Part shown: one piece after another, positions 17,228 through 33,217 of the stretch
Layout: each line of letters opens with the position of its first letter
Position numbering within the stretch: the stretch's first letter is position 1
NCBI RefSeq assembly: GCF_020037125.1
Contig: NZ_JAIQDG010000017.1
Span: 124,001-188,000 of the forward strand
Length of the DNA: 64,000 bases
Source of the DNA: Myxococcus sp. RHSTA-1-4
GTDB taxonomy: Bacteria; Myxococcota; Myxococcia; Myxococcales; Myxococcaceae
Reading direction: 5' to 3'
Position numbers and translations under genes: made by a program
The notes under the pieces: generated by a model
Seen by the model: only the letters and a program-made list of their open reading frames with translations
Told to the model about the DNA's origin: nothing
Databases searched by the model: none

Positions 17228-17311
17228 GGCGGGGCCCGCGAGGGCCGCTCCCGGGTGGTCATGCCCGATGACCGCTTCCGCCGGTTTCCCCATGACCATT
17301 ATCCTCCGGGC

Positions 17312-18826
17312 ATGAAGCGAGCCCCCTCGGGAATCCTGCCCATCATCGCGGTGGACCGTCGCTCGCCGGTGCCGCTGTACCGGCAGGTCTACGAGGGCTA
17401 CCGCGAGGCCATCGTCGACCGCAGGCTGCGGGCGGGGCAGCGGCTCCCGTCCACGCGCAGTCTGGCCTCCGAGCTGGGCATCTCCCGCATCCCCATCCTG
17501 GGCGCGTTCGAGCAGCTCCTCGCCGAGGGCTACTTCGAGAGCCGCGTGGGCGCGGGAACGTTCGTGGCCCACTCGCTGCCCGACGAAGGGCCTCCGCCGG
17601 ATGCGCGTGAGATGGCTCGCGGCGCGGCGGCGCAGGTGCGTCCCGGCAAGCGCGTCGTCTCGCGGGCCTCGGAGCTGTTGAGCCCCACGGCGGCTCCCTG
17701 GCTCGGCGGCCATGGCGCCTTCCGCTTGAGCGCACCCGCGCTGGACCCGTTCCCCTTCCAGGTGTGGTCCTCCCTGATGGCCCGGCACTCGCGAAACCCC
17801 ACCCGGAGCCAGCTCGCCTACGGGGACCCCATGGGGTACCGGCCCTTCCGCGAGGCGCTCGCGGAGTACCTGCGGACGTCGCGAGCCGTCCGGTGCGAGC
17901 CGGAGCAGATCATGGTGGTCAGTGGCTCGCAGCAGGCCCTGGAGTTGTCGGCCCGCGTGCTGCTCGACCCGCGCAGCCCCGTGTGGATGGAGGAGCCGGG
18001 CTACGCCGGAGCGCGGGACGTGCTCACGATGGCGGGTGCCCGGCTGGTGCCGGTGCCGGTGGACGAGGAGGGGCTGGACGTGAGCGCCGGCATCGCCCGC
18101 TGCGCGAACGCCCGGGCCGCCTACGTGACGCCCTCGCATCAGTATCCGCTCGGGGGGACGCTGAGCGCGACACGCCGGCTCCAGCTCCTGGACTGGGCAC
18201 AGCGCAGCGGCGCGTGGATTCTCGAGGACGACTACGACAGCGAGTACCGCTACGAGAGCCTTCCCATCTCCGCGTTGCAGGGGCTGGATAGGGATGCGCG
18301 CGTCATCTACATCGGGACCTTCAGCAAGGTGCTCTTCCCCGCGCTGCGCGTGGGCTACCTGGTGCTCCCGGCGGACCTGGTTCCCCGCTTCGCCCGGGTG
18401 CGCGACGCGATGGACATCTTCCCGCCGACGCTCTTCCAGGCCGTGCTGACGGACTTCATCACCGAGGGCCACTTCGCGCGCCACCTGCGGAAGACGCGGC
18501 AGCTCTACCGCGAGCGGCGCACCGTGCTCGTGGATGCGCTCACGCGGGAGCTGGGCGGCACGGTGGAGGTGCTCGGCGCCCGGGCGGGCATGCACCTGGT
18601 GGCGGCGCTACCCAAGGGGTTTCAGGACCGGGCCATCTCCGAGCGCGCCGCGAAGGAGGGACTCTGGGCCATGCCGCTCTCCGCCTGCTACCTGGCAGGG
18701 GACTCCCGCCAGGGACTCGTCCTTGGCTACGGAGGCACGGACGCCAGGCGGATACCGGACGCCGTGCGGCGGCTGCGAAAGGTCATTCTCGCGGGCCGGG
18801 CTGGGAGCGGAGCACCCCGGCGGTGA
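17312..18826 (+). CDS. MocR-type regulator (GntR HTH fused to aminotransferase fold)
   Basis: The 504-residue protein has a GntR winged helix (about residues 12-80, with PLYRQVYEGYREAIVDRRLR and LPSTRSLASELGISR) joined to a class I aminotransferase-like domain. The PLP lysine is Lys339 in GTFSKVLFPALRVGY, and EDDYDSEYRY supplies the expected Asp/Tyr contacts. MocR proteins sense PLP-linked metabolites and usually control adjacent genes. It lies 54 bp upstream of, and in the same direction as, the ATP-grasp gene, so it may regulate the biosynthetic cluster that follows. The ATG at 17312 is preferred to an upstream in-frame one. Confidence 0.9.
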   Translation: MKRAPSGILPIIAVDRRSPVPLYRQVYEGYREAIVDRRLRAGQRLPSTRSLASELGISRIPILGAFEQLLAEGYFESRVGAGTFVAHSLPDEGPPPDAREMARGAAAQVRPGKRVVSRASELLSPTAAPWLGGHGAFRLSAPALDPFPFQVWSSLMARHSRNPTRSQLAYGDPMGYRPFREALAEYLRTSRAVRCEPEQIMVVSGSQQALELSARVLLDPRSPVWMEEPGYAGARDVLTMAGARLVPVPVDEEGLDVSAGIARCANARAAYVTPSHQYPLGGTLSATRRLQLLDWAQRSGAWILEDDYDSEYRYESLPISALQGLDRDARVIYIGTFSKVLFPALRVGYLVLPADLVPRFARVRDAMDIFPPTLFQAVLTDFITEGHFARHLRKTRQLYRERRTVLVDALTRELGGTVEVLGARAGMHLVAALPKGFQDRAISERAAKEGLWAMPLSACYLAGDSRQGLVLGYGGTDARRIPDAVRRLRKVILAGRAGSGAPRR

Positions 18827-18880
18827 CGCGGGCCGGGCGGCATGCGCGAGGGTGGGGGCGGTGTGGAATACTCGCCCGCC

Positions 18881-20242
18881 ATGCCAGGCAACGAGCTGAC
18901 CGAAGCCATCTCCTTCTACGACGGGTTGCTCCAGGGCGAGGTCTTGCGACGGACCCATGAGCTGCTCCTCCAGCGCACGCTCGCGGAGCGGGTGACCTAC
19001 AAGAGCCGCTCGCTGTATCACGTGCTTCGCCCGCGCTTCATCACTCCCCAGCAGCTGGTGGAACACCAGCGCGCCACCCTCGCGGTGAGGCGGGGAATCG
19101 AGGCGGTGTATCGGCACGCCTGCCGGGACGAGGCCTTCCGCCGCGAGCTGGGCGTCCAGGACTGGGAAGAGCTCCTGATGCGCGTGGACGGGGACAGCCG
19201 GATGCCGGCCATCGTCGGACGCCTGGACGGCTTCGTCGACCCGGACGGCGTCCTGCGCTTCATGGAGTACAACCCCGCCCCCGGCGGCTACCTCATCATG
19301 CACCTCCTCGGCGAGGCGTTCTCCGCCACGCCCGTTCTGGAGGCCTTCTCGCGCCGCTACGACGTCGTCCTGCCGCGCACCGCCCCCAACATCATCGACG
19401 CGCTGAAGGCCAACCACGCGCGCATGGGCCGTGATGGCATGCCGCAGCTCGCCCTCTTCGGCCCCGCCGGCCCGGATGACGTGGACGAGGAGCAGCTCCT
19501 CCAGGAGTACCTCCCCGCGCAGGGGGTGCACTTCCAGCACGTCACCTCCGAGGACGAGTGGACGTACCGGGACGGCCGGCTCTACGTGCGCGACTTCCGC
19601 GTGGACGTCGTCACCTTCATCTCCAGCGTCGGGTTTGGCGGGCTGATTGTCGGCTGCGGCCCGGACCACCCGGTGATGCGGGCGCTCGTCGACGGCGCGG
19701 CGTACTTCATGAACGGGATGTTCCAGCTCTGCGTGCTGAACAGCAAGGTGCTCTTCGCCGCGCTGAGCACGCCCACGAATGCGCACCTGTTCGCGCCGGA
19801 CGTCCGTGAGGCGCTGGCCCGCCACATCCCCTGGACCCGGGTCGTTCGCGAGAGCACGACGTCCTACGGCGGGAAGGAAGTGGACCTGCTCCCCTTCGTC
19901 TCGGCGAACCGCGAGCGCTTCGTCCTCAAGCCGGCCACCGGTTATGGCGGCACGGGCGTGGTGCTGGGCTGGGTGGCCGACGCGGAGACCTGGGACGCCA
20001 CCCTGAAGCAGGCCCTGACGGAGCCGTGGGTCATCCAGGAGCGCATCCACACGACGAAGGAGCCCTACCCCGTCCTGGACGGCACGGGCATCCGTTACGA
20101 AGAGCTCCACATGGACCTCAACCCGTACGTGTGGAACGACGAGCGCGCGGAGGGCTGCTTCGTGCGTGTCTCACCCACGCCGATGATGAACCTGGCCCAG
20201 GGCGGCTCGCTGGCGCCGCTGGCCGTCGTCCGCGAGCGCTGA
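18881..20242 (+). CDS. ATP-grasp-like ligase candidate
   Basis: This 453-residue protein has features of an ATP-grasp ligase, which activates a carboxylate as acyl phosphate for attack by an amine. The nucleotide loop reads FVLKPATGYGGTGVVLG with Lys350, followed by WVIQERI, a likely hinge strand, and a C-terminal EELHMDLNPYVW strand with acidic/Asn metal ligands. The N-terminal half resembles glutathionylspermidine-synthase-like or circularly permuted ATP-grasp proteins (FMEYNPAPGGY). No signal peptide is present. It precedes the two GNAT/C-Ala genes and the NRPS on the same strand, suggesting it ligates a building block or product. Exact family and substrate are not established. Confidence 0.65.
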   Translation: MPGNELTEAISFYDGLLQGEVLRRTHELLLQRTLAERVTYKSRSLYHVLRPRFITPQQLVEHQRATLAVRRGIEAVYRHACRDEAFRRELGVQDWEELLMRVDGDSRMPAIVGRLDGFVDPDGVLRFMEYNPAPGGYLIMHLLGEAFSATPVLEAFSRRYDVVLPRTAPNIIDALKANHARMGRDGMPQLALFGPAGPDDVDEEQLLQEYLPAQGVHFQHVTSEDEWTYRDGRLYVRDFRVDVVTFISSVGFGGLIVGCGPDHPVMRALVDGAAYFMNGMFQLCVLNSKVLFAALSTPTNAHLFAPDVREALARHIPWTRVVRESTTSYGGKEVDLLPFVSANRERFVLKPATGYGGTGVVLGWVADAETWDATLKQALTEPWVIQERIHTTKEPYPVLDGTGIRYEELHMDLNPYVWNDERAEGCFVRVSPTPMMNLAQGGSLAPLAVVRER

Positions 20243-20393: not shown

Positions 20394-22211
20394 ATGATTC
20401 TCTATGACGAGCACGCACTCTCTGCGATTCCGTGGCCTGAGACACCGGAGGGGCGGTTCGCTCGCGACTATCTGAGCCCGCTGCTGCGCGAGGGCAGCAC
20501 GGCCTTCGTGTCGGACCGGACGACGTACCGCGTCGTCGGCATGGACGGGTTGCTCATCCCCGTGGCCATCAACGACGCGGAGTACGACAACTCGCCGCTG
20601 TTCTCCAACTTCGCCCGCTACATCACCGTCCAGCTCGCGATGATGGACGCGAGGAACTGGGGCGGCGCGTCCGGGTGGGCCATCCGCCGCGTGCTCCGGA
20701 GCCTGGGGCTGATGCTCAAGGCCGCGCGCATCGACCGGTGCGTCTACGTGGACCACTGGCTGGTGCTGCGCAACCTGGGCGCCATGCTGACGCCGGAGCA
20801 GGTGCGGCGGCTCACGGGCTTCCTGGCCGAGCGCTTCCCCGGGCACGCCATCGTCTTTCCGTCGGTGAACCCGGCCACGCACTCGCCACTGCTCAACAAC
20901 CTCCGGGCGGAGGGCTACGGCTTCATCTACGCGTTCCACACGCGGATGCTCCTGCCCTTCAAGGCCGAGCTGAGCCGCCAGGTGCGGGAGAACCACCGCC
21001 GGGACGCGCGGCTCCTGGAGACGGCCGGCTACAAGCTGGTGGACGGCGCCGACCTGCCGGGCTGTGCGCCCCGGCTGCTGGAGCTGTACCGCGCGCTGAA
21101 CGAGGAGAAGTACTCGACGAACCTGCGAGTCACGGAGAAGTTCTTCGAGCACGCGCTGAGAGACCGCACGCTCCGCTTCCGCGTGGCGGTGAAGGATGGC
21201 CGCATCGACGGGTTCTACGCCTTCACGGTGAATGACGACGTCGTCTTCTCTCCCTGGTTCGGGTACGACCTGAGCCTCCCGCAGGAGCTCGGCCTGTACC
21301 GGGGGCTCGTGTATCAGCTCATGCAGGAGGCGATGGAGCACGGGCTGACCGTCGAGCTGGGCGCCGGCGCGGACGAGTTCAAGAGCCGGCGCGGCGACAA
21401 GCCGGTGCCCCGCTACAACGCCGTCCATACCGGCCACCTGCCCGCGTGGCGGCGCGCGGGGTGGCGGCTGCTCCAGCGCTTCGCCAACGAGGCCCTGCTG
21501 CCGTCGTCGAAGTCGTACCTGCGGAGCATCGACGGTGACGGGGTGGTGGGCTTCGACCGCATGCCCGAGGTCTTCACGCCGCCCACCGGCCTCAGCCCTC
21601 GCGAGGCGGCGGAGTCCCTGCGCCAGGAGCTGGCCTCGCTGGAGCGAGCGCTGGAGGAGGCCTCCGCCCTGGAGGGCGAGGCCCTGGCCCGGGCCCTCAC
21701 CCCGTTGTCGCAGAAGCTCCACAACTGGCCGCAGCCCCCGAAGCGGGTGGTGGAGCTGCGCGGGCGGCTGGAGGCGCTGGAGCAACGCCAGCGGCGCAAG
21801 GCCAGCGCTCCCGAGGAGAAGACCTCGCCCGTGGAGGAGGCCCAGCGCCTGCTCGCGGGCGCGGCGCGGCTGGGAGACACCTCCCTGGTGGCCCAGCACC
21901 TGGGGGACGCCTCGTCGCGGCACCTGAAGGACGTGGTGGACTGTCTGAAGCAGCACGCCGGCAGCGCCGCCGTGGTGCTGACCGCCATGCGTGGAGAGAA
22001 GGTGGTGCTCGTCACCGCGGCGACGCAGGCGCTGCTCCAGCGCGGCGTGGACGCCGGCCAGCTCATGGCGCATGTCGCGCCGGCCGTGGACGGGAAGGGC
22101 GGCGGCGCGCCGGAGGTGGCCTGGGGCGGGGGCTCGCGCCCCGACGGCATCCAGGCGGCGCTGGATGCGGCGCGGCGGTACCTCGATGAGCGCCTCGGTA
22201 GGACGGCCTGA
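20394..22211 (+). CDS. FemX-like GNAT protein fused to AlaRS C-Ala (DHHA1) domain, copy 1
   Basis: Residues 1-400 look like a double-GNAT, FemABX-type transferase: AYKLVDG region, LYRALNEEKY, then VAVKDGRIDGFYAF and LGLYRGLVYQL...VELGAGADEFKSRRG. Residues 405-500 are helical/coiled-coil. Residues about 510-605 match the alanyl-tRNA synthetase C-terminal DHHA1/C-Ala domain: VDCLKQHAGS, KVVLVTAAT, GVDAGQLMAHVAP and GKGGG at 567-571 followed by P. C-Ala binds the tRNA elbow, so the fusion suggests an aminoacyl-tRNA-dependent transferase. A close tandem paralogue follows. The shared MxLYDE N-terminus fixes the start. Confidence 0.75.
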   Translation: MILYDEHALSAIPWPETPEGRFARDYLSPLLREGSTAFVSDRTTYRVVGMDGLLIPVAINDAEYDNSPLFSNFARYITVQLAMMDARNWGGASGWAIRRVLRSLGLMLKAARIDRCVYVDHWLVLRNLGAMLTPEQVRRLTGFLAERFPGHAIVFPSVNPATHSPLLNNLRAEGYGFIYAFHTRMLLPFKAELSRQVRENHRRDARLLETAGYKLVDGADLPGCAPRLLELYRALNEEKYSTNLRVTEKFFEHALRDRTLRFRVAVKDGRIDGFYAFTVNDDVVFSPWFGYDLSLPQELGLYRGLVYQLMQEAMEHGLTVELGAGADEFKSRRGDKPVPRYNAVHTGHLPAWRRAGWRLLQRFANEALLPSSKSYLRSIDGDGVVGFDRMPEVFTPPTGLSPREAAESLRQELASLERALEEASALEGEALARALTPLSQKLHNWPQPPKRVVELRGRLEALEQRQRRKASAPEEKTSPVEEAQRLLAGAARLGDTSLVAQHLGDASSRHLKDVVDCLKQHAGSAAVVLTAMRGEKVVLVTAATQALLQRGVDAGQLMAHVAPAVDGKGGGAPEVAWGGGSRPDGIQAALDAARRYLDERLGRTA

Positions 22212-22286
22212 CGCGCGGGCCCGCGGACACCCTTGAACGGGCGCTCTCCGGGCGCCTCCACCTCCTCGACTGACTCCGCACGCACC

Positions 22287-24134
22287 ATGAACCTCTACGA
22301 CGAGCGCGACATCACCTCCGCCCCGTGGCCGGACACGGAGGCGGGGCGCAGGGCCCGGGACTTCCTCGTCCCCCTCTTCCAGCAGGGCGCCATGGCGTTC
22401 TTCTCGGAGCGGACCACCTTCCGGCTCGTCGAGCTGGACGGGCTGCTCCTGCCCCTCTCCATCAACGACGCGGAGTACGGCAACACGGGCGCCTTCTCCC
22501 TCTTCGCCCGCTACATCACCAACCAGCGCGCGGCCATCGCGGACAACGAGGGCTTCGGGCCCGTCGCCAGGCGGGTGGTCAGCCGCGTCCTTCAGGGGCT
22601 GGGTGGGGTGCTCAAGGCCTCGCGAATCAACAAGTGCATCTTCGTGGACAACTGGCCCACGCTGCGCAACACCACGCCGCTGCTGTCCGCCGACCAGGTG
22701 CGGCGCCTCACGCGCTTCCTCACGGAGCGCTTCCCCGGACATGCCATCGCCTTCCCGGCGCTGAGCCCCGCCACGCACGCGCCGCTGCTCGACACGCTGA
22801 CGGAGTGTGGCTACTCCGCCCTCTACACGCCCTACACCCGGATGGGGCTCGCCCACGGGGAGGAAATCCACCGCAAGGTGCGGGAGAACCGCCGCCGGGA
22901 TGCGCGGTTGCTGGAGACGTCCGGCTACCAGCTCGTGGATGCCCGGGACGTGCCCGGCTGCGCCCCCCGGCTGGCGGAGCTGTACCGGATGCTCAACCGG
23001 GAGAAGTACCGGACGAACCCCGACGTCCGCCCCGAGTACTTCGAGGCCGCCCTGCGCGGCGGGCCGATTCACCTCCGCGCGCTGGTGAAGGACGGGCGAA
23101 TCGACGTGTTCTACGGCATCTCCGTGGTGGGAGATGTCCTCTGGTCGCCCGTCGCCGGGTATGACCTCGGCGTTCCCCGCGAGGTCGGGCTGTACCGCAT
23201 CCTCAACAGCCTGCTGCTGAAGGAGGCCGTGGACCGGGGCGTGGCCATCGAGACGGGGGCCGGCGCGGACGAGTTCAAGAGCCTGCGCGGTGACAGGCCG
23301 CTTCCCCGCTACTGCATCGTCTACACCGACCACCTGCTCCCGCACCGCAAGGCGGGGTGGAGGTTGTTGCAGCGCTTCGCCAACGGCTCGCTGCTGCCGG
23401 CCGCCCGGGGCTACCTGCGCCGTATCGACGGGGACGCGGTGGTGGGCTTCGACGCCATCCCCCAGCGCTTCGTCCCTCCGTTCATGAGCCCCGGGGAATC
23501 GGTGGAGCTCCTGCGCAAGGACCTGGAGGCGATGGAGGCCGAGCTGGAGGAAATCCCCCGGCTGGAGCGGCGGGAGCGGGCCGGCCGCCTCGCCGCGCTC
23601 GCGAAGAAGCTGGAGGACTGGCCCCCTCCCCTTCCGCCGCGCTTGTCGGAGCTTCGCGAGAAGCTCGGGCACATGACGCAGCGGCTGAACGAGGAGAAGC
23701 CCGGCCGGAGCAGGGAGGCCACGAAGGCCCGGCGGGCGGAGCTGGCCCGCTCGCTCATCGCGAGCGCGATGAAGCTGGGGGACGCCACGCTCGTGGTCAG
23801 CCACCTGGGGGAGGCTCCCGTGGAGCAGCTTCGCGCCGTCGCCAGCGCGGTCCGCGAGGCCGCCGCGTCCTCCGCGGTGGTGCTCACGGGCACGCAGGGC
23901 GGCAAGGTGGTGATGTTCGCCGCGGCGGCGCCGGAGCTGTGTGCGCGCGGCGTGGACGCGGGGGCGCTCCTGGCCCAGGTGACACCGGTCGTGGAGGGAC
24001 GTGCCGAGGGCGGACCGGAGCTGGCCTGGGGCGAGGGAACGCGCCGCGAGGGCGTGGACGCGGCGCTTGAGGCGGCGCGGCAGTTCCTCCAGGCCCGTCT
24101 GGGCGGTGAACCCCGAGAGGTAGGTGGAAGATGA
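22287..24134 (+). CDS. FemX-like GNAT protein fused to C-Ala domain, copy 2
   Basis: This 615-residue paralogue of the preceding protein shares the start MNLYDERD, the GNAT blocks (LYRMLNREKYRTNPDV, LVKDGRIDVFYGI, IETGAGADEFKSLRG) and the helical linker. Its C-terminal C-Ala-like domain keeps KVVMFAAAA, ARGVDAGALLAQV and LAWGEGT, but the GKGGG loop has become GRAEG (571-575), so tRNA contacts may differ or be lost. It overlaps the NRPS start by four bases (ATGA), giving tight co-translation. The two copies may act on different acceptors or form a heterodimer; that is inference. Confidence 0.75.
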   Translation: MNLYDERDITSAPWPDTEAGRRARDFLVPLFQQGAMAFFSERTTFRLVELDGLLLPLSINDAEYGNTGAFSLFARYITNQRAAIADNEGFGPVARRVVSRVLQGLGGVLKASRINKCIFVDNWPTLRNTTPLLSADQVRRLTRFLTERFPGHAIAFPALSPATHAPLLDTLTECGYSALYTPYTRMGLAHGEEIHRKVRENRRRDARLLETSGYQLVDARDVPGCAPRLAELYRMLNREKYRTNPDVRPEYFEAALRGGPIHLRALVKDGRIDVFYGISVVGDVLWSPVAGYDLGVPREVGLYRILNSLLLKEAVDRGVAIETGAGADEFKSLRGDRPLPRYCIVYTDHLLPHRKAGWRLLQRFANGSLLPAARGYLRRIDGDAVVGFDAIPQRFVPPFMSPGESVELLRKDLEAMEAELEEIPRLERRERAGRLAALAKKLEDWPPPLPPRLSELREKLGHMTQRLNEEKPGRSREATKARRAELARSLIASAMKLGDATLVVSHLGEAPVEQLRAVASAVREAAASSAVVLTGTQGGKVVMFAAAAPELCARGVDAGALLAQVTPVVEGRAEGGPELAWGEGTRREGVDAALEAARQFLQARLGGEPREVGGR

Positions 24135-27100
24135 CGCTGACTCCCGATGAGAAGCGGGCCCGGCTCGCGCGGCTGCTGCGTGAGAAGGCCCGCAGGTCCC
24201 GGCGGGCGCCTCCCTCCTTCTCCCAGGAGCGGATGTGGTTCCTGGAGCAGTGGAACCCCGGCAGCGCCCTCTTCAACATGCCCGTGGTGGTGCGGCTGTC
24301 CGGTGAGCTCCACCTGGAGGCGCTGGAGCGCGGCCTCCAGCAGCTCGTGGACCGGCACGAGGCGCTGCGCACCACCCTCACCGTGGAGGAGGGGCTCCCC
24401 GTCCAGTGCATCTCCACCGGCATGGAAGTGCCTCTGGAGGTGGTGGAGCTCCCGGAGGCGCTGGCCTGGGAGCGCATCTCCACCGAGGCGCGGCGGCCGT
24501 TCGACCTGGAGCGGGGGCCCCTGCTGCGCACCGTGCTGCTCCGGCTCGCCCCGGACGCGCACCTGCTCCTGGTGAACACGCACCACATCGTCACCGACGC
24601 CTGGTCCCTGGGGGTGCTCGTGCGCGAGCTGGCCGCCGTGTATCAGGCCTTCGCCGAGGGGCAGCCCTCGCCGCTGGCGCCGCTGCCGCTCCAGTACGCG
24701 GACTACGCCGCGTGGCAGCGCGAATGGCTGCGGGGCCCGGTGCTGGAGGAGCAGCTCGCCTGGTGGCGCTCCCGGTTGGACCCCAAGGCCCGCCTGGAGC
24801 TGCCCGCCGACAAGCCGCGTCCCGCCGTGCTCGGCTCGCGCGGAGAGCGGCAGGTGCGGATGCTGTCCCCGGCGCTCACCGAGGCGCTCAAGGCCCTGGG
24901 CCAGCGCGAGGGGAAGACGCTCTTCGTCGTCCTGTTGGCCGCCTTCAAGGCGCTCCTGTACCGCTACACGGGGCAGACGGACCTGACGGTCGGCTCGCTC
25001 ATCGCGGGCCGCAACCGCGCCGACCTGGAAGGACTCATCGGGCTGTTCATCAACGCCCTGGCCCTGCGCACCCAGATGTCGGGGGACACCTCGTTCCGCG
25101 CGTTGCTGGAGGCCGTGCACGAGACGACGCTCCAGGCCTATGCGCGCCAGGACGTGCCTTTCGAGAAGCTGGTGGAGGCGCTCAAGGTGGAGCGCAGCTC
25201 CAGCCACCTGCCGCTGTTCCAGGTGATGCTCGTCCTGCAGAACTCGCCCCTGCCGCCGCTTCGAGCCCGCGGGCTGGTGATGGACGCGCTGCCCGTCGAC
25301 ACGAAGACGACGAAGCACGACCTCACGCTGTACGCCATCGAGCTGCCCCAGGGCTTGCGGCTCAGCGCGGAGTACAGCACGGACCTGTTCGAGGCCCCGA
25401 CGATGGCGCGCCTCCTGGGCCACCTGGAGACGCTGCTGGCCGGTGCCGTGGAGGACCCGAACCGGCGCCTCGCGGAGCTGCCGCTGTTGACCGGCCCGGA
25501 GCGCCACCAGCTCCTGCGCGAGTGGAGCGGCGAGCACTTCGACCTCCCGCGTGAGGCCTGCATCCACACCCTCATCGAGGCCCAGGTCCGGCGCACGCCC
25601 GACGCGGTGGCGCTTTCCTTCGAGGGCTCGCGCCTCACGTACGCGGAGCTGGACGCGCGCGCGAATCAGCTCGCGTGGCACCTGCGCTCGCTGGGCGTGG
25701 GCCCGGAGGTGCGCGTCGGCCTGTGTCTGGAACGCTCCCTGGAGATGGTGGTGGCCCTGCTGGCCACCCTCAAGGCCGGTGGCGCCTATGTGCCGCTGGA
25801 CCCGGCATACCCCTCGCAGCGCCTGACGTGGATGCTGGAGGACGCGCGGCCCGCGGTGCTGCTCGCACAGGAGCGGTTGCTGCCGCGCCTTCCTCCGCAC
25901 GAGGCCCGGGTGGTGCTCGTGGACTCCGGCTGGGACGTGGTGGCCCTCCAGCCGCGGCACGCTCCTCCTCCCACGGCCAGCTCCGGCGGCCTCGCGTACG
26001 TCATCTTCACCTCGGGCAGCACCGGCCGCCCCAAGGGGGCGATGAACGAGCATGGCCCGGTGGTCAACCGCCTGCTGTGGATGCAGCGGGAGTACGGGCT
26101 GACGCCAGCGGACACCGTGCTTCAGAAGACGCCGTTCAGCTTCGATGTATCCGTGTGGGAGTTCTTCTGGCCGCTGATGGTGGGGGCGCGGCTGGTGGTG
26201 GCGAAGCCGGGCGGGCACCAGGAGCCGGCGTACCTCGCGCGCCTCATCGCGGAGGAGGGCGTCACCACGCTGCACTTCGTGCCCTCCATGCTCCAGGTGT
26301 TCCTGGAGGAGCCGGGGCTGGAGCGCTGCGCGTCGCTGAAGCGCGTGGTGTGCAGCGGCGAGGCCCTGCCGCTGGACCTGGCCGAGCGCTGCCTCGAGCG
26401 GCTGCCCGGCGCGGGGCTGCACAACCTCTACGGCCCCACCGAGGCCGCGGTGGACGTCACCTATTACCCGTGCGTGCCGGGCGAGCCGCGCCGCTCGGTG
26501 CCCATTGGCCGCCCCGTGGCCAACACGCAGATTCGCCTGCTGGATGCGAACCTGCGCCCGGTGCCCATCGGCGTGTCGGGCGAGCTGTTCATCGGCGGCG
26601 TGCAGGTGGGGCGCGGCTACCTGGGCCGTCCGGAGCTGACGGCGGAGCGCTTCATTCCGGACCCCTTCATCGACACGCCGGGCGCGCGGCTGTACCGCAC
26701 CGGCGACGTGGCGCGCTGGCTGCCGGATGGCGCCATCGAGTACCTGGGCCGGGCCGACTTCCAGGTGAAGGTGCGCGGCCTGCGCATCGAGCTGGGTGAA
26801 ATCGAGGCCGTGCTGGAGCAGCACCCCTCCGTGCGGCAGGCGGTGGTGGTGGCGCGCGAGGACGGGGGCGGGGACAAGCGGCTGGTGGCCTACGTCGCGG
26901 GGCGGGGCGAGGCGGGCGCGGTGGACCCCGAGGCACTGCGGGCGCTGATGCAGGCGAAGCTGCCCGAGTACATGGTGCCCTCGGCCCTCGTGGTGCTGGA
27001 CGCGCTTCCGCTCAGCCCCAACGGCAAGGTGGACCGCAAGGCCCTGCCCGCGCCGGAATTGGAGCGCGCGCGCGAGGGACATGTGGCTCCGGCCACTCCC

Positions 27101-30100
27101 ACCGAGGTGGAGGTGGCCGCGCTCTTCGGCGAGCTGCTCGGCGTGGAGCGCGTGGGCGCGCGGGATGACCTCTTCAAGCTGGGCGGCAACTCGCTGATGG
27201 CCACGCGCGTCCTCGCCCGCCTGCGCGCGCGCTTCGGTGTGGAGCTGCCCCTTCGCGCCCTGTTCCAGCACTCCACCGTCCAGCAGGTCGCGAGGCTGGT
27301 GGATGAGGCCCGGGCCCGCGTGGCGCCCGCACCGGAGCGCATTCCCGCGCCGGAGCAGCGGCGCCGCCTGCCCGTCATCTCCCTGCGCGCCGATTCGTTG
27401 CCCCCGGGCCTGGAGACCCCGGCAGCGGCAGGCGAGGCGCCGCTCACGGACGAGGAGCGGCACCGCCTGCTGGTGGAGTGGAATGACACGGCCGCGGACT
27501 TCCCCCGTGAGACGTGCCTGCACCAGCTCGTGGAGGCCCAGGCCCGCGAGACTCCCGAGGCCGTTGCGGTGGTGGCGGGCTCCACGCGCCTCACCTACGC
27601 GGAGCTGGAGGCGCGCGCCAACCGGCTCGCCTGGCGCCTGCGTGAGCTGGGCGTGGGGCCCGAGGTGCGCGTCGGCCTGTGCGTGGAGCGCACGGCGGAC
27701 ATGGTGGTGGGGATGCTCGGCATCCTCAAGGCGGGTGGTGCCTACGTGCCGCTGGACCCCACGTACCCGCGGGAGCGCCTGGCCTTCCTGCTCGAGGACG
27801 CGCAGGGGCCCGCGCTCGTCGCCCACTCGCACCTGCTCGCGGCGCTGCCTCCGCACGCCGCCACGCCGGTGTGCCTGGACACGGACGCGGAGGCCCTGGC
27901 GCTTCAGCCCTCGACACAGCCTCCGGTCGCGGCGCTGCCGGAGAACATCTCCTACCTCATCTACACGTCGGGCAGCACGGGCCGCCCCAAGGGCGTGGCC
28001 ATTCCGCACCGCGCCGCCGTGGCGTTCCTCTCCTGGGCGCACGGCGTCTTCTCCGCGGAGGAGCTGGGCGGTGTGCTGGCCGGCACCTCGCTCAACTTCG
28101 ACCTCTCCGTGTTCGAGGTCTTCGCCCCGCTGAGCCGTGGCGGCAGCGTCATCGTCGCCCGCAATGCGCTGGCGCTGGCGGAGCTGCCCCACGCGTCGGA
28201 GGTGACCCTCGTCAACACCGTGCCCTCCGCCATGGCCCAGTTGCTGCGGCTGGGCGCGCTGCCCGCCTCGGTGCGCACCGTCAACCTCGCCGGAGAGCCG
28301 CTCCCGGCGCCCCTGGCGCGAGAGGTGTACGAGGTGCCCACCGTGCGGCGCCTCTACGACCTCTATGGCCCGTCGGAGGACACCACCTACTCCACCTTCT
28401 CGTTGGTGAAGCCCGGGGAGCCGCCCCTCATCGGCCGCCCCATCTCCAACACCCGCGCCTACGTGCTGGACGAGCACCTGCAACCGGTGCGCGTGGGCGC
28501 GCCCGGCGAGCTGTACCTGGCGGGCTCGGGGCTGGCGCGGGGCTACCTCCATCGCCCGGAGCTGACGGCGGAGCGCTTCCTCCCGGACCCCTTCGGTCCG
28601 CCGGGCTCGCGCATGTACAAGACGGGAGACCGGGTGCGCTACCGGCCGGACGGTGAGCTGGAGTACCTGGGCCGCAACGACTTCCAGGTGAAGGTGCGCG
28701 GCTTCCGCATCGAGCTGGGCGAGGTGGAGGCCCGGCTCCAGGCCCAGCCGGGCGTGCGCGAGGCCGTGGTGGTGGCGCGCGAGGACGGCCCTGGAGGTCA
28801 GCGCCTCGTCGCGTACGTGGCGGGCGAGGCGGGACAGACGCTCGAAATCAGCGCCCTGCGCGAGGGACTTCGCGCCACGCTGCCCGAGTACATGGTGCCC
28901 TCGGCCTTCGTGGTGCTGGAGGCCCTGCCGCGCAACTCGAATGGCAAGGTGGACCGCAAGGCGCTGCCCGTGCCCCTCAATGAGCGCACCAGCCTCCGGC
29001 CCTATGAGGCACCGCGCACGCCCACGGAGGAGTTGCTGGCGGGGCTGTGGCGCCAGGTGCTCGGCCTGGAGCGCGTGGGCGTGAAGGACCACTTCTTCGA
29101 GCTGGGCGGCCACTCGCTGCTGGCCACGCAGGTGGTGGCCCGGCTGCGCACGGCGCTGCGGACGGAAGTGCCCATGCAGGCCTTCTTCGAGGCGCCCACG
29201 CTGGAGGCGTTGGCCCGGCGGGTCGACGCCGCCCGCGGCGATGGCGAGGCCACGCCCGTGGTGCCCCCGCTGCTGCCGGTGCCGAGGACGACGGGCGCGC
29301 TGCCGGTGTCCTTCGCCCAGCAACGCCTGTGGCTGCTGGACCGGCTGGAGCCCGGAAGCACCGCGTACATCATCCTCGCGGCGCTGCGCCTCCAGGGGGC
29401 GCTGGACGTGCGCGCGCTGGTGCTCGCCTTCCAGGCGCTGCACGAGCGGCACGAGAGCCTGCGCACCGTCTTCGGCGAGGACGCGCAGGGCCCCACCCAG
29501 GTCATCCTCCCCGCCGGGCCGCCGGACATGGGACTGGTGGACCTGCGGGAGCTGCCCGAGCCGGAGCGCGAGGCCGAGGCGCGCGCGCTGGCGGCCGATG
29601 AGGCCCAGCGGCCCTTCAACCTGGAGAAGGGCCCGCTGGTGCGCGCCCTGCTGCTGCGGCTGAGCGAGCAGCACCACCTGCTGGTGGTGTCGATGCACCA
29701 CATCATCTCGGACGGTTGGTCCTCGGCGGTGCTCATCCGCGAGCTGTCCGCGCTCTACGAGGCCTTCTCACGGGGCGAGGAGCCCCGTCTGCCGCCGCTG
29801 CCCGCGCAGTACGCGGACTACGCGGTGTGGCAGCGCCAGTGGCTGAAGGGCGAGGTGGTGGAGTCCCAGCTCGACTGGTGGCGCCAGCAGCTCACCGGGG
29901 CGCCGTCCCTGCTGGAGCTGCCCACGGACCGGCCGCGCCCGGAGGTGCTCTCTCCGAGAGGCGGCCGCGTGCCGGTGCAGCTGGGCGAGCCTGTGTCCAC
30001 GGCGCTCAAGGCCCTGTGCCACCGCGCGGGCGTGACGCCCTTCATGGCCCTGCTGGCGGGCTTCGTGGCGCTGCTGTCCCACGAGTCGGGACAGCCCGAC

Positions 30101-31504
30101 GTGCTGGTGGGCTCGCCCGTCGCGGGCCGTGGCCTGCCGGAGCTGGAGGGGCTCATCGGCTTCTTCGTCAACACGCTGGCGCTGCGCACGCGGCTGCACG
30201 GCAACCCCAGCTTCCGCGAGCTGCTGGGCCGGGTCCGCGAGGTGACGCTCGGGGCCTATGCACACCAGGACGTGCCCTTCGAGCGCGTGGTGGAGGCCGT
30301 CCAGCCGGAGCGCGGCCCGGACCGCTCGCCGCTCTTCCAGGTCATGTTCGTGCTGCAGAACGCGCCGTGGGCACAACCCATGGGGCCGGGGCTGTCCATG
30401 CGGTTCGAGGACGTGGAGCGGCACTCGGCGAAGTTCGACCTGACGCTGGCGCTGTGGGAGACGGAGGAGGGGTTCTCCGGCTCGCTGGAGTACGCCAGTG
30501 ATTTGTTCGAGCGCACCACGGCGGCGCGGATGTCCGAGCGGCTGCGCGGCCTGCTGGCGTGGGCGGTGGCGCATCCGGAAGCGCCGCTGTCCCGGCTGGA
30601 CCTGGCGCCCGACGTGCGCGAGCTGCTGGTGCCGCTCCAGGCCGGGGGCTCGCGTCCGCCGTTCTTCTGCGTCCATGCGGTGGGCGGCACCGTGTCGGGC
30701 TACGCGGAGCTGGCCCGTCACCTCGGCTCGGAGCAGCCCTTCATCGGCATACAGGCCCGCGGGCTGGAGGGCGAGCAGCCCCCGCTGGAGTCCATCGAGG
30801 CCATGGCGGCGCTCTACGTGGAGGCCCTGCGCACCGCGCGGCCTCACGGGCCCTACCGCCTGGGAGGCTGGTCGCTGGGCGCGGTCATCGCCGTCGAGAT
30901 GGCGCGGCTCCTCCAGGAGGCGGGGGAGGTGGTGGAGCAGCTCATCCTCATCGAGCCCAGCCCCACGTCGTATGCGCAGGGCACCCGTGTCGAGGAGTCC
31001 GAGACGCTGGATGGGCTGTTCGCGCTGAACCTGGCGCGCACGCTGGGGCTGCCCGTGGAGCCCGAGGACGTCCAGCGGTTGGACGATGGCCCGGCGCTGC
31101 TGAAGCACCTGCTGGAGAGGGGCCGCCGCGCGGGTGTCTTTGGCCCCGAGGTGGGGCTGGCGCGGCTCCAGGCGCTCCAGCGCGTCTTCACGTCCTGTGC
31201 GCGCGCCCTCCATCAGCATGTGCTGCGTCCCCTCTCGCTTCCGGTCGTCCTGCTGCGAGGCACGGAGGCCGAGGTGGGGGAGGCCCACGTGCCCGACCGG
31301 GGCTGGGCGGCGCTGGCTTCCCAGGTGGAGGTGGTGGACGTGTCGGGCGACCACTACACCGTGCTGCAGGCGCCGCATGTGGAGACGCTGGCCAGCGCGC
31401 TGAGCCGTGTCCTGGAGGTCTACCCCGCGCGGAGTCCTTGCGGGGAGGGACCGCCGCTTCGGCCCGAGGTGAGCGGGCTGTCCACGAAGCGCACCTCGCG
31501 GTAG
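24131..31504 (+). CDS. Non-ribosomal peptide synthetase, C-A(Ser)-T-A(Ala)-T-C-TE
   Basis: Domains over 2457 residues: C1 (about 27-450; HHIVTDA at 151-157), A1 (about 480-980), carrier T1 (Ser1021 in LGGNSL), A2 (about 1105-1620) directly after T1 with no condensation domain between, T2 (Ser1662 in LGGHSL), C2 (about 1725-2160; HHIISDG at 1856-1862) and thioesterase (about 2175-2430). Reading the ten specificity positions by motif alignment gives DVWHVSLVDK for A1, close to the EntF serine code, and DLFNNALTYK for A2, a code I know as alanine. The thioesterase has GWSLG (Ser2248), His2408, and Glu2275 where Asp is usual. The ATG overlaps the preceding stop. Confidence 0.95.
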   Translation: MTLTPDEKRARLARLLREKARRSRRAPPSFSQERMWFLEQWNPGSALFNMPVVVRLSGELHLEALERGLQQLVDRHEALRTTLTVEEGLPVQCISTGMEVPLEVVELPEALAWERISTEARRPFDLERGPLLRTVLLRLAPDAHLLLVNTHHIVTDAWSLGVLVRELAAVYQAFAEGQPSPLAPLPLQYADYAAWQREWLRGPVLEEQLAWWRSRLDPKARLELPADKPRPAVLGSRGERQVRMLSPALTEALKALGQREGKTLFVVLLAAFKALLYRYTGQTDLTVGSLIAGRNRADLEGLIGLFINALALRTQMSGDTSFRALLEAVHETTLQAYARQDVPFEKLVEALKVERSSSHLPLFQVMLVLQNSPLPPLRARGLVMDALPVDTKTTKHDLTLYAIELPQGLRLSAEYSTDLFEAPTMARLLGHLETLLAGAVEDPNRRLAELPLLTGPERHQLLREWSGEHFDLPREACIHTLIEAQVRRTPDAVALSFEGSRLTYAELDARANQLAWHLRSLGVGPEVRVGLCLERSLEMVVALLATLKAGGAYVPLDPAYPSQRLTWMLEDARPAVLLAQERLLPRLPPHEARVVLVDSGWDVVALQPRHAPPPTASSGGLAYVIFTSGSTGRPKGAMNEHGPVVNRLLWMQREYGLTPADTVLQKTPFSFDVSVWEFFWPLMVGARLVVAKPGGHQEPAYLARLIAEEGVTTLHFVPSMLQVFLEEPGLERCASLKRVVCSGEALPLDLAERCLERLPGAGLHNLYGPTEAAVDVTYYPCVPGEPRRSVPIGRPVANTQIRLLDANLRPVPIGVSGELFIGGVQVGRGYLGRPELTAERFIPDPFIDTPGARLYRTGDVARWLPDGAIEYLGRADFQVKVRGLRIELGEIEAVLEQHPSVRQAVVVAREDGGGDKRLVAYVAGRGEAGAVDPEALRALMQAKLPEYMVPSALVVLDALPLSPNGKVDRKALPAPELERAREGHVAPATPTEVEVAALFGELLGVERVGARDDLFKLGGNSLMATRVLARLRARFGVELPLRALFQHSTVQQVARLVDEARARVAPAPERIPAPEQRRRLPVISLRADSLPPGLETPAAAGEAPLTDEERHRLLVEWNDTAADFPRETCLHQLVEAQARETPEAVAVVAGSTRLTYAELEARANRLAWRLRELGVGPEVRVGLCVERTADMVVGMLGILKAGGAYVPLDPTYPRERLAFLLEDAQGPALVAHSHLLAALPPHAATPVCLDTDAEALALQPSTQPPVAALPENISYLIYTSGSTGRPKGVAIPHRAAVAFLSWAHGVFSAEELGGVLAGTSLNFDLSVFEVFAPLSRGGSVIVARNALALAELPHASEVTLVNTVPSAMAQLLRLGALPASVRTVNLAGEPLPAPLAREVYEVPTVRRLYDLYGPSEDTTYSTFSLVKPGEPPLIGRPISNTRAYVLDEHLQPVRVGAPGELYLAGSGLARGYLHRPELTAERFLPDPFGPPGSRMYKTGDRVRYRPDGELEYLGRNDFQVKVRGFRIELGEVEARLQAQPGVREAVVVAREDGPGGQRLVAYVAGEAGQTLEISALREGLRATLPEYMVPSAFVVLEALPRNSNGKVDRKALPVPLNERTSLRPYEAPRTPTEELLAGLWRQVLGLERVGVKDHFFELGGHSLLATQVVARLRTALRTEVPMQAFFEAPTLEALARRVDAARGDGEATPVVPPLLPVPRTTGALPVSFAQQRLWLLDRLEPGSTAYIILAALRLQGALDVRALVLAFQALHERHESLRTVFGEDAQGPTQVILPAGPPDMGLVDLRELPEPEREAEARALAADEAQRPFNLEKGPLVRALLLRLSEQHHLLVVSMHHIISDGWSSAVLIRELSALYEAFSRGEEPRLPPLPAQYADYAVWQRQWLKGEVVESQLDWWRQQLTGAPSLLELPTDRPRPEVLSPRGGRVPVQLGEPVSTALKALCHRAGVTPFMALLAGFVALLSHESGQPDVLVGSPVAGRGLPELEGLIGFFVNTLALRTRLHGNPSFRELLGRVREVTLGAYAHQDVPFERVVEAVQPERGPDRSPLFQVMFVLQNAPWAQPMGPGLSMRFEDVERHSAKFDLTLALWETEEGFSGSLEYASDLFERTTAARMSERLRGLLAWAVAHPEAPLSRLDLAPDVRELLVPLQAGGSRPPFFCVHAVGGTVSGYAELARHLGSEQPFIGIQARGLEGEQPPLESIEAMAALYVEALRTARPHGPYRLGGWSLGAVIAVEMARLLQEAGEVVEQLILIEPSPTSYAQGTRVEESETLDGLFALNLARTLGLPVEPEDVQRLDDGPALLKHLLERGRRAGVFGPEVGLARLQALQRVFTSCARALHQHVLRPLSLPVVLLRGTEAEVGEAHVPDRGWAALASQVEVVDVSGDHYTVLQAPHVETLASALSRVLEVYPARSPCGEGPPLRPEVSGLSTKRTSR
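31476..31504 (+). repeat. 29-bp direct repeat, left copy
   Basis: This copy forms the last 29 bases of the NRPS gene and matches 34724-34752 at 28 of 29 positions (C here, A there at position 15). On the minus strand both copies encode YREVxFVDS. The pair brackets 3.2 kb containing the lower-GC HipA/DUF3037 genes. Confidence 0.75.
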
Positions 31505-31630: not shown

Positions 31631-32396
31631 ATGCGCGTGCCGGATGACACGTGGCTCGGAGGACTACTGGGACCATCCCTGGAGGTGGTCAGCGGTGGCA
31701 CGAGCGCTGGTCCCGTCGATGTTCCACATACGAGTCAAGCCGACTTCTTTGTGGACGGAGTGGGCCGACGATGGGTGCGCAAGAGCCTCGACCAGATTTG
31801 GCTGGCAGGAGATGCTCGCTGAGCTCGTCGGCTGGTTCTTGGGGCGAGACCTTGGTGCACCTGTACCTGATGCCGCCATTCTGTTCCCGGGGCGCGCAGA
31901 CGCAGCGTGGCTGAGTGCCTACATCCCCCATCCGATTCACTGGGAGGCACACCACGCCCACTTCGTGACCAACCTGGACGCCTTTGGCGCGATGCTCGCG
32001 CTCGATGCGATCATCCACAACCACGACCGGCACAAGATGAACATCTTGCTGACGCCAGGGGCTGAAGAGCCAGAGCTCGACGCGTGGGCGATCGACACAG
32101 GGGCGGCGTTGGTCGGATTCCCTGCAGACTTCGCAGCAGCAGATCTGGCTGTGCCGGAAAAGCCGAATATTGCCCGGGGGTTACCTGTGCGCTTGATGGA
32201 ACCAGGCGCCCGCCGGGCTGCCAGGCGGGCAGTCGAGCTGGTGGAGTCTCCTGCCCTTCAGCATCAGGTAGCCGGTGCCTGCAGGCTTGTAGGTGAGCAA
32301 GAAAGCAACATACTGTTCTCGGCCCTTTCGAAGAGGATGAAGCAGGCGACCAGGTTGGTTGAACGCTACATCGAGGTCGTGGGAGCAATCTCGTGA
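31631..32396 (+). pseudogene. HipA-like kinase (HipA_2 type), frameshifted
   Basis: An ATG at 31631 after a GGGGTGGGGG purine run opens MRVPDDTWLGGLLG and on to RRWVRKSLDQI, then stops at 31818-31820. The conserved body is in another frame: GWQEMLAELVGWFLG, the kinase loop HNHDRHKMN and AIDTGAALVG (metal-binding Asp). Removing one T from the TTT near 31797 joins the halves exactly. HipA-like kinases phosphorylate targets such as aminoacyl-tRNA synthetases and act as toxins or stress switches. GC content is clearly below the surroundings, implying transfer. Either the gene is broken, the frameshift is programmed, or it is a sequencing error. The downstream partner overlaps its stop. Confidence 0.65.
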
Positions 32397-33217
32397 GCGC
32401 CAAGTTCCGTCTCGTCCAATACGTGCCGGATCCCTTCGTTGGGACGAAGATCACTATTGGCGCGCTCGTCGAGCACGATGGGCAGGTCGAACTTGCTCGG
32501 GCTCCTTGGGTTCCCGGCCCTGGCTGCATCGGTGGGCGCAAAGCATGGTCCACCATGCAGCTCATCCTCGACTCTCTCTCCACGCCAGCTCGGTTCGATC
32601 TCCCATCTGGAGAGCTAAGTGCCCTCGCCCAACTGGGGGAAGAGCGCCTCGTACCAGCAGGTGTTGGCAGCGCGCGGGAATGGCTTGAGGCCAAGCTTCT
32701 GCCGCAGAAGCCGCTGCGTGAGCAGGATCAAAAGGAGACTCCGCCATACCGACCCCATCGGGATACGGTGGGCTACCGATTCTTCGAGCAGTGGAGCGTC
32801 GCAGACTTCGTGAAGAGGAAGTACGCGCCCAGTTCCCTGCCTCGAACGCACCCCAAGGCTGCGGCAAGTGTCTCGCACTACGTTCCTGGAAAGGACGAGT
32901 TGCTGCTGATGGAGCCGGTGGTTGGTACGCGTCCGAAGTTTGAGGATGACCTTCAGGCCATCAGCCAAGAGTTCTTGGCGTTCCGCGAACTCTTCCGTCA
33001 GATGAGCGGTCCTCATCAAACCCCTGTGTTCATTGCGTACGTGCTCACGGGGGGATACTCGGCGGCGATGGGAGAGGCGAGCAGGGTGCTCTCGCGAGCT
33101 GCCGACCAGGTCGTCAATGTCGATGACCCAGCTCAGCGCACACTATTTCTTCAGCGCATTGTTGCTGTGGGCAGCTCTGGTGGGAACCAAGGCTCGTTGC
33201 CATTGCCGCGGAACTGA
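32393..33217 (+). CDS. DUF3037-like partner of the HipA-like kinase
   Basis: The 274-residue product starts at a GTG overlapping the HipA-like stop (GTGA). Its N-terminus, KFRLVQYVPDPFVGTKITIG, resembles DUF3037 proteins, which often follow HipA_2-type kinases in two-gene units. The rest is poorly recognisable, with YRPHRDTVGYRFFEQW, LLMEPVVGTRP and a helical C-terminus. Codon usage and GC content are those of the upstream gene and unlike the flanking DNA, so both were probably gained together. The role (antitoxin or co-factor) is unknown. Confidence 0.55.
   Translation: MSAKFRLVQYVPDPFVGTKITIGALVEHDGQVELARAPWVPGPGCIGGRKAWSTMQLILDSLSTPARFDLPSGELSALAQLGEERLVPAGVGSAREWLEAKLLPQKPLREQDQKETPPYRPHRDTVGYRFFEQWSVADFVKRKYAPSSLPRTHPKAAASVSHYVPGKDELLLMEPVVGTRPKFEDDLQAISQEFLAFRELFRQMSGPHQTPVFIAYVLTGGYSAAMGEASRVLSRAADQVVNVDDPAQRTLFLQRIVAVGSSGGNQGSLPLPRN

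Follow-up and report, generated by a model that had tools for sequence, protein, structure and literature searches.

Tandem FemX-like double-GNAT proteins joined to an alanyl-tRNA synthetase C-Ala module, encoded directly upstream of a myxobacterial nonribosomal peptide synthetase

In a 64,000-nucleotide stretch of the genome (11.2 Mb) of Myxococcus sp. RHSTA-1-4 (contig NZ_JAIQDG010000017.1, positions 124,001 to 188,000; hereafter, the window), two adjacent genes, which we call GC1 and GC2, encode paralogous proteins that combine an N-terminal GNAT module with C-Ala, the C-terminal part of alanyl-tRNA synthetase (AlaRS). The presence of this architecture in both proteins is far beyond chance, and the fusion apparently has not been described previously: no GNAT-C-Ala or GNAT-DHHA1 fusion was found in the open-access literature searched, in line with the original prediction, made from the sequence alone, which had regarded it as new. 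We favour, with somewhat more than even confidence, the view that GC1 and GC2 are aminoacyl-tRNA-dependent transferases of the FemX/MprF/Sbb17 structural type, which bear a whole AlaRS C-Ala and act in the pathway of the nonribosomal peptide synthetase (NRPS) encoded directly downstream. The features of the two genes are as follows, in positions of the window.

20394..22211, + strand: GC1, FemX-like double-GNAT protein with a C-terminal AlaRS C-Ala (605 aa, ATG at 20394)
22287..24134, + strand: GC2, paralogue of GC1 with the same architecture and a degenerate GG-motif, GRAEGG (615 aa, ATG at 22287)
20394..21482, + strand: predicted double-GNAT module of GC1, residues 1-363 (AlphaFold2 model, VIA-align, PF13480)
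21378..21383, + strand: F329-K330 dyad of GC1, proposed counterpart of DhpH-C F328-K329 and FemX K305 by motif and position
21597..21803, + strand: helical subdomain of the GC1 C-Ala, residues 402-470 (three helices in the full-length model; phmmer to 5t5s; Foldseek)
21882..22184, + strand: globular subdomain of the GC1 C-Ala (DHHA1), residues 497-597 (PF02272; 3g98_A)
22092..22106, + strand: GKGGG motif of GC1, residues 567-571, the C-Ala motif that contacts the tRNA D-loop, kept in the GC1 clade

The two proteins are 53% identical end to end, and their GNAT parts are 58% identical. The original prediction had placed a DHHA1/C-Ala domain at the C-terminus of both, behind a FemABX/GNAT-like region, and profile searches bear this out. 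PF02272 (DHHA1) matched residues 497-597 of GC1 (E 3.6e-10, 40.7 bits; Pfam cut-off 25.9) and residues 500-601 of GC2 (23787-24092; E 1.8e-5), the latter at 25.6 bits being slightly below the cut-off, which was passed at 29.7 bits when the DHHA1 model was used to query the genome. Acetyltransf_6 (GNAT, PF13480) matched residues 196-331 of GC1 (E 1.2e-9), and Pfam reported no match of this family for GC2. The GKGGG read earlier in the first copy is present, and its place in the second is taken by GRAEGG. The AlaRS models of NCBIfam matched GC1 and GC2 solely at the C-terminal end of AlaRS and detected neither the catalytic nor the editing domain of the synthetase. When the PDB was searched with the GC1 sequence, Aquifex C-Ala 3g98 (E 2e-6) and human AlaRS 5t5s (E 8e-6) were found, and the phmmer alignment with the human C-Ala extended over residues 405-602, covering both C-Ala subdomains. 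A hidden Markov model based on 15 C-Ala segments of myxobacterial AlaRS matched every one of the 19 fused proteins obtained from other genomes, at E 3e-26 to 4e-11, and no relative that consists of the GNAT part only. A DHHA1 domain of the RecJ/NrnA type was rejected, because the archaeal RecJ model gave E 0.034 versus 1.5e-11 for alaS.

Structure prediction leads to the same assignment. In the full-length GC1 model (predicted local distance difference test (pLDDT) 85.3, predicted template modelling score (pTM) 0.72, a value too low to place C-Ala reliably against the GNAT module), the GNAT part is followed by three helices (402-470) and then by a globular domain (480-601). Foldseek listed many AlaRS C-Ala structures for this model beside MprF and FemX; the match to 3g98_A had a template modelling score of 0.87 (by target) and a root mean square deviation (rmsd) of 1.8 A over 108 columns, 202 columns were aligned to human C-Ala (5t5s/5t76), and 2zvf was also matched. 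Judged by the model, residues from approximately 400 to 601 of GC1 are a true AlaRS C-Ala with both the helical and the globular subdomain.

The N-terminal module was modelled separately (AlphaFold2, GC1 1-400, 15 sequences, pLDDT 85.6, pTM 0.87). The leading Foldseek matches of this model were Sbb17, MprF/DUF2156, Sba18, A-PGS, L-PGS and FemX, the majority of the top matches being aminoacyl-tRNA-dependent enzymes. Alignment by VIA to FemX (7z5y) gave Z 16.5 with 286 residues and rmsd 4.5, spanning GC1 2-362 and both GNAT domains, and that to Sba18 gave Z 16.1 with 254 residues and 3.6 A. Because VIA rows within 1 Z unit count as tied, we limit the claim to a double-GNAT fold of the FemX type, which the model predicts, and name no nearest relative. 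The resemblance to FemX and to AlaRS C-Ala that the original prediction expected of an AlphaFold model is thus found in the respective parts of the protein.

The putative active site was compared among 39 diverse members of the family. Gly325, Lys330, Arg333 and Gly334 (GC1 numbering) are invariant in all of them, and position 329 is Phe in 37 and Tyr in the other two. In DhpH-C, the essential Lys329 is preceded by Phe328 and has been likened to K305 of FemX (PMC12945691), and we infer from motif and position that K330 of GC1 is the counterpart of these lysines. The pyrophosphate loop for coenzyme A (CoA), [QR]xxGx[GA], is present in 0/39 members; a bulky GLYR replaces it, with Tyr at position 6 in 38/39.

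Family members that lack C-Ala (~380 aa) occur in Bacillota, Chloroflexota, Pseudomonadota and other phyla, whereas proteins with the fusion (~606 aa) were seen in Myxococcota alone (Pyxidicoccus, Citreicoccus, Archangium, Corallococcus and Sorangium), in a search by two peptide patterns that may miss fusions elsewhere. Of 195 genomes of this phylum that were searched, 17 have the protein. A maximum-likelihood tree groups all 33 fused rows together (support 100/100), with separate GC1 and GC2 clades inside this group. Since the Archangium pair is divided between the two and Sorangium falls in the GC2 clade, the duplication postdates the fusion and is old; the tree thus points to a fusion that arose once, in myxobacteria, and was then duplicated. 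Both copies are paired in most genomes that have the NRPS. Two irregular GC2 copies were observed: in Corallococcus sicarius (L061:11848-13284) the protein ends at 479 aa by a stop, with loss of the globular C-Ala, and in G162 a TGA was read within a GC2 match.

The position directly upstream of an NRPS, noted in the original prediction, recurs in several genera, the order GC1-GC2-NRPS being conserved in Pyxidicoccus fallax, in Citreicoccus and Archangium, and in several Corallococcus. Some Corallococcus also carry a lone extra GC1-like gene, which lies within a few kb of another NRPS. The genes of the cluster other than GC1 and GC2 are as follows.

24131..31504, + strand: bimodular NRPS, C-A(Ser)-T-A(probably Ala)-T-C-TE, from Pfam domains and motif positions (C, condensation; A, adenylation; T, thiolation; TE, thioesterase)
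18842..20242, + strand: ATP-grasp-like protein, possibly of the circularly permuted type (PF14403, E 7.6e-5, under the Pfam cut-off)
17255..18826, + strand: MocR-type regulator, GntR plus aminotransferase (PdxR/MocR models of NCBIfam)

Pfam identified two C, two A, two T and one TE domain in the NRPS, and the motif positions (C at 150 and 1855, T at 1016 and 1657, the FD-motif of A at 671 and 1323, TE at 2245) place T1 (1016) too close to A2 (FD-motif at 1323) for an intervening C domain. The domain order, the missing internal C domain and the residues of the specificity pockets are conserved in the orthologues read. The A1 pocket, DVWHVSLV(D), differs in its last residue, V versus I, from DVWHVSLI, which is documented as Ser-like (PMC3207962); being near this code, A1 is predicted to activate Ser. 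The A2 pocket is DLFNNALTY, an Ala-type string for which a literature search gave no confirmation, and A2 probably activates Ala. The C1 motif is HHIVTDA here and HHLVTDA in P. fallax, versus HHxxxDG, and other genera keep DG; this suggests a possibly altered function of C1 in this lineage.

In the reading we favour, a charged tRNA would enter the double-GNAT module with its 3' end, and its amino acid would be transferred to an amine of an intermediate of the NRPS pathway, either the Ser- or Ala-loaded carrier protein or a released product. The C-Ala of GC1, with GKGGG, would hold the tRNA by its elbow and provide the charged tRNA, most simply tRNA-Ala although the choice may be relaxed, and the C-Ala of GC2, without the GG-motif, would mainly serve to pair GC2 with GC1. 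The best precedent, by analogy, is PacB beside the pacidamycin NRPS. A more specific version, a hybrid tRNA/NRPS line in which the GC1 tail captures charged tRNA and the GNAT domains of paired GC1 and GC2 load the carrier-bound Ser or Ala, replacing the condensation missing between T1 and A2, is offered only tentatively.

The original prediction had proposed aminoacyl-tRNA-dependent transfer with recruitment of the tRNA by C-Ala in both copies. This stands in part: the FemX-like fold, the true C-Ala and the recurrent NRPS are in its favour, and several observations weigh against it. GKGGG is kept in 13/13 proteins of the GC1 clade, whereas the GG-motif is broken in 8/8 of the GC2 clade. The AlaRS of the same phylum have GGGKPDxAQ in 15 of 15 cases, and of its residues invariant in AlaRS, Lys572 (GC1 numbering) is replaced, mostly by Ala, Ser or Gly, and Gln577 by Trp in all 21 fused proteins. 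The net charge of the globular subdomain is approximately 0 in GC1 and GC2 versus +4/+5 in AlaRS, whose segments are somewhat longer. Double-GNAT proteins that use acyl-CoA also match the model by VIA (VipF, Z 14.7 at rmsd ~8; MshD, Z 12.5). When the PDB was searched with a profile of the 39-member family, no sequence of Fem, MprF or Sbb17 came up to E 10, so that the kinship with FemX rests on structure, and GC1 and GC2 are classed as proteins that would work like the characterised FemABX/MprF enzymes, not as established members; the FemAB_like family of Pfam gave a weak match to one GNAT-only relative. The GNAT-only relatives adjoin genes of acyl or lipid type (3-beta-hydroxysteroid dehydrogenase (3-beta-HSD)-like, metallo-beta-lactamase, AMP-ligase and KASIII) and show no link to tRNA. 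GC1 also persists in Pyxidicoccus caerfyrddinensis (G022) without GC2, the ATP-grasp gene or an adjacent NRPS.

The C. elegans C-Ala offers a comparison: docking places its GG-motif Lys in contact with G18 of the D-loop, the K934A variant binds 11-fold worse, and K938A carries a threefold cost (PMC10485164). From the K-GGG-K spacing, K934 fits K568 of GC1 and K938 fits A572, in which case GC1 keeps the stronger contact and loses the weaker; in place of the GG-motif Lys, Lys or Arg is found in some GC2 members only. Since the GG-motif is kept in GC1 and lost in GC2, and the Lys, the Gln and the charge are lost, C-Ala plausibly delivers tRNA in GC1, but this is doubtful in GC2, whose C-Ala may serve for dimerisation only.

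The same losses are what would be expected if the donor is aminoacyl-tRNA but C-Ala is a module of dimerisation or docking (GC1-GC2 heterodimer or binding to the NRPS) that binds no tRNA in either protein. Bacterial C-Ala dimerises through its helical subdomain (PMC10485164), which is present in the GC1 model, and the pairing of the two genes agrees with this. The globular subdomain, unneeded for dimerisation alone, is nevertheless retained and conserved, as is the GKGGG of the GC1 clade, and we consider this alternative to be doubtful. N-acyltransferases that use acyl-CoA or acyl carrier protein on the NRPS product, with C-Ala for assembly only, would fit the membership in the GNAT superfamily, the acyl-CoA enzymes among the structural matches and the AMP-ligase, KASIII and 3-beta-HSD-type neighbours of the GNAT-only relatives; such an activity is improbable, as the CoA loop is missing in all 39 members, with GLYR in its place, the best structural matches are aminoacyl-tRNA enzymes and the C-Ala fusion would be hard to account for. 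Self-protection on tRNA or AlaRS, for example by taking off or changing aminoacyl groups that the product of the cluster attaches, and with no role in assembly, would agree with C-Ala being an AlaRS module and with GC1 having kept its site in G022 in the absence of the NRPS, but the FemX-type fold with its Phe-Lys pair is kept, and the tight gene order with the NRPS and the two copies fit biosynthesis better; this explanation is very improbable.

FemX (Weissella viridescens) and MprF/A-PGS resemble GC1 in the double-GNAT fold (~285 residues) and in the catalytic-type Lys in a Phe-Lys motif, but the acceptors of FemABX and MprF are the peptidoglycan precursor or a lipid. No FemABX or MprF/A-PGS enzyme is known to have a C-Ala module. 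The known aminoacyl-tRNA-dependent GNAT enzymes bind tRNA mainly at its acceptor end, and their means of winning charged tRNA against translation is an open question. Those of natural product pathways include PacB, VlmA, DhpH-C, DhpK, Orf11 and Sbb17/Sba18 (PMC12945691). This group shares with GC1 the fold class (9wqx and 9wqy are among the top matches, the Sbb17 structure being that of the streptothrisamine-bound aminoacyl-tRNA-dependent peptide synthase) and the setting in a biosynthetic cluster, and PacB likewise works beside an NRPS; however, C-Ala is described in none of them (PMC12945691), and the present case differs by its tandem paralogues and an NRPS without an internal C domain. Compared with the C-Ala of AlaRS, that of GC1 has the same helical and globular parts and GKGGG in common, but in GC1 and GC2 it is detached from the synthetase, fused to GNAT and neutral in charge, with Lys and Gln lost in both and the GG-motif lost in GC2. 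In LysX, the MprF-LysRS fusion of actinobacteria, a GNAT aminoacyl-tRNA transferase is likewise joined to a tRNA synthetase, but there the whole synthetase makes the charged tRNA, whereas GC1 and GC2 have only the tRNA-binding tail of AlaRS and no charging or editing domain (PMC2922099). AcmF/AcmD of the ascamycin pathway also reuse AlaRS parts for aminoacyl transfer in natural product synthesis; in AcmF, however, the reused domains are those for aminoacylation and tRNA recognition, C-Ala is not among them, and a GNAT domain is absent (PMC12945691).

If the favoured reading is correct, an elbow-binding AlaRS module fused to a GNAT enzyme would give, for one case, a direct answer on the supply of charged tRNA, and the synthesis of small molecules would be coupled directly to the translation machinery. 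If C-Ala binds no tRNA here, the proteins would clearly exemplify the reuse of a synthetase module for assembly alone. The combination of GNAT and DHHA1 is also a strong sequence handle for tRNA-dependent steps in natural product clusters, and the fusion marks an uncharacterised family of myxobacterial NRPS.

Among the other genes of the cluster, the MocR-type gene is kept alongside GC1 in two genomes (G012 and G022) and possibly regulates the cluster. The lone GC1 of G022 (L040:11780-19547) lies between a histidine kinase gene and MocR and tetratricopeptide repeat (TPR) genes, which in the window frame the whole cluster, with the histidine kinase and MocR genes at its flank or opening. The G022 genome yielded neither GC2 nor an ATP-grasp gene, which suggests either that the rest of the cluster was lost or that GC1 has an independent role there. 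The ATP-grasp-like protein matched the glutathionylspermidine synthase-like 3n6x weakly (E 0.097); by tblastn its orthologues lie beside or near GC1 at four loci (L039, L043, L049 and L050), similar open reading frames are present in L062, L063 and L066, and in G043 it is located elsewhere in the genome. After the NRPS (31644-33217), the window has a HipA/PI3K-like gene (weak PADLOC candidate PDC-M03A, 6.2e-5) and a gene for an unmatched 274-aa protein; neither was matched in P. fallax, where a TPR gene follows the NRPS.

Three other assignments were rejected. A tRNA gene or an AlaRS duplicate as part of the cluster is not supported, as the window has no tRNA gene and the one clear AlaRS-type DHHA1 of the genome lies outside it; other DHHA1 matches are also present in the genome by the DHHA1 model search. 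The corallorazine (crz) NRPS has the order C-A-T-C-A-nMT plus T-TD (PMC11342130) versus C-A-T-A-T-C-TE here, and no tRNA-type genes appear in that report. The PADLOC matches of GC1 and GC2 were weak and implausible, and a role in defence was rejected.

The GNAT-only relatives recur in an operon that also encodes a metallo-beta-lactamase-fold protein, an AMP-ligase-like protein and a dehydrogenase of the 3-beta-HSD/epimerase type (L072, L074, L077, L087, L088, L089, L095, L096, L100, L114 and L115; ~3 kb upstream of the match). Its Chloroflexota version also has KASIII, and the operon recalls Ole/beta-lactone pathways. A short GNAT homologue of Corallococcus (L101:4144-8846) is accompanied by a haem-oxygenase-like diiron protein, DUF3419, Asp/Asn hydroxylase-like and FMN-binding proteins, with homologues in L105; three of these neighbours are common to Zooshikella, and the neighbourhood is possibly a small biosynthetic cluster.

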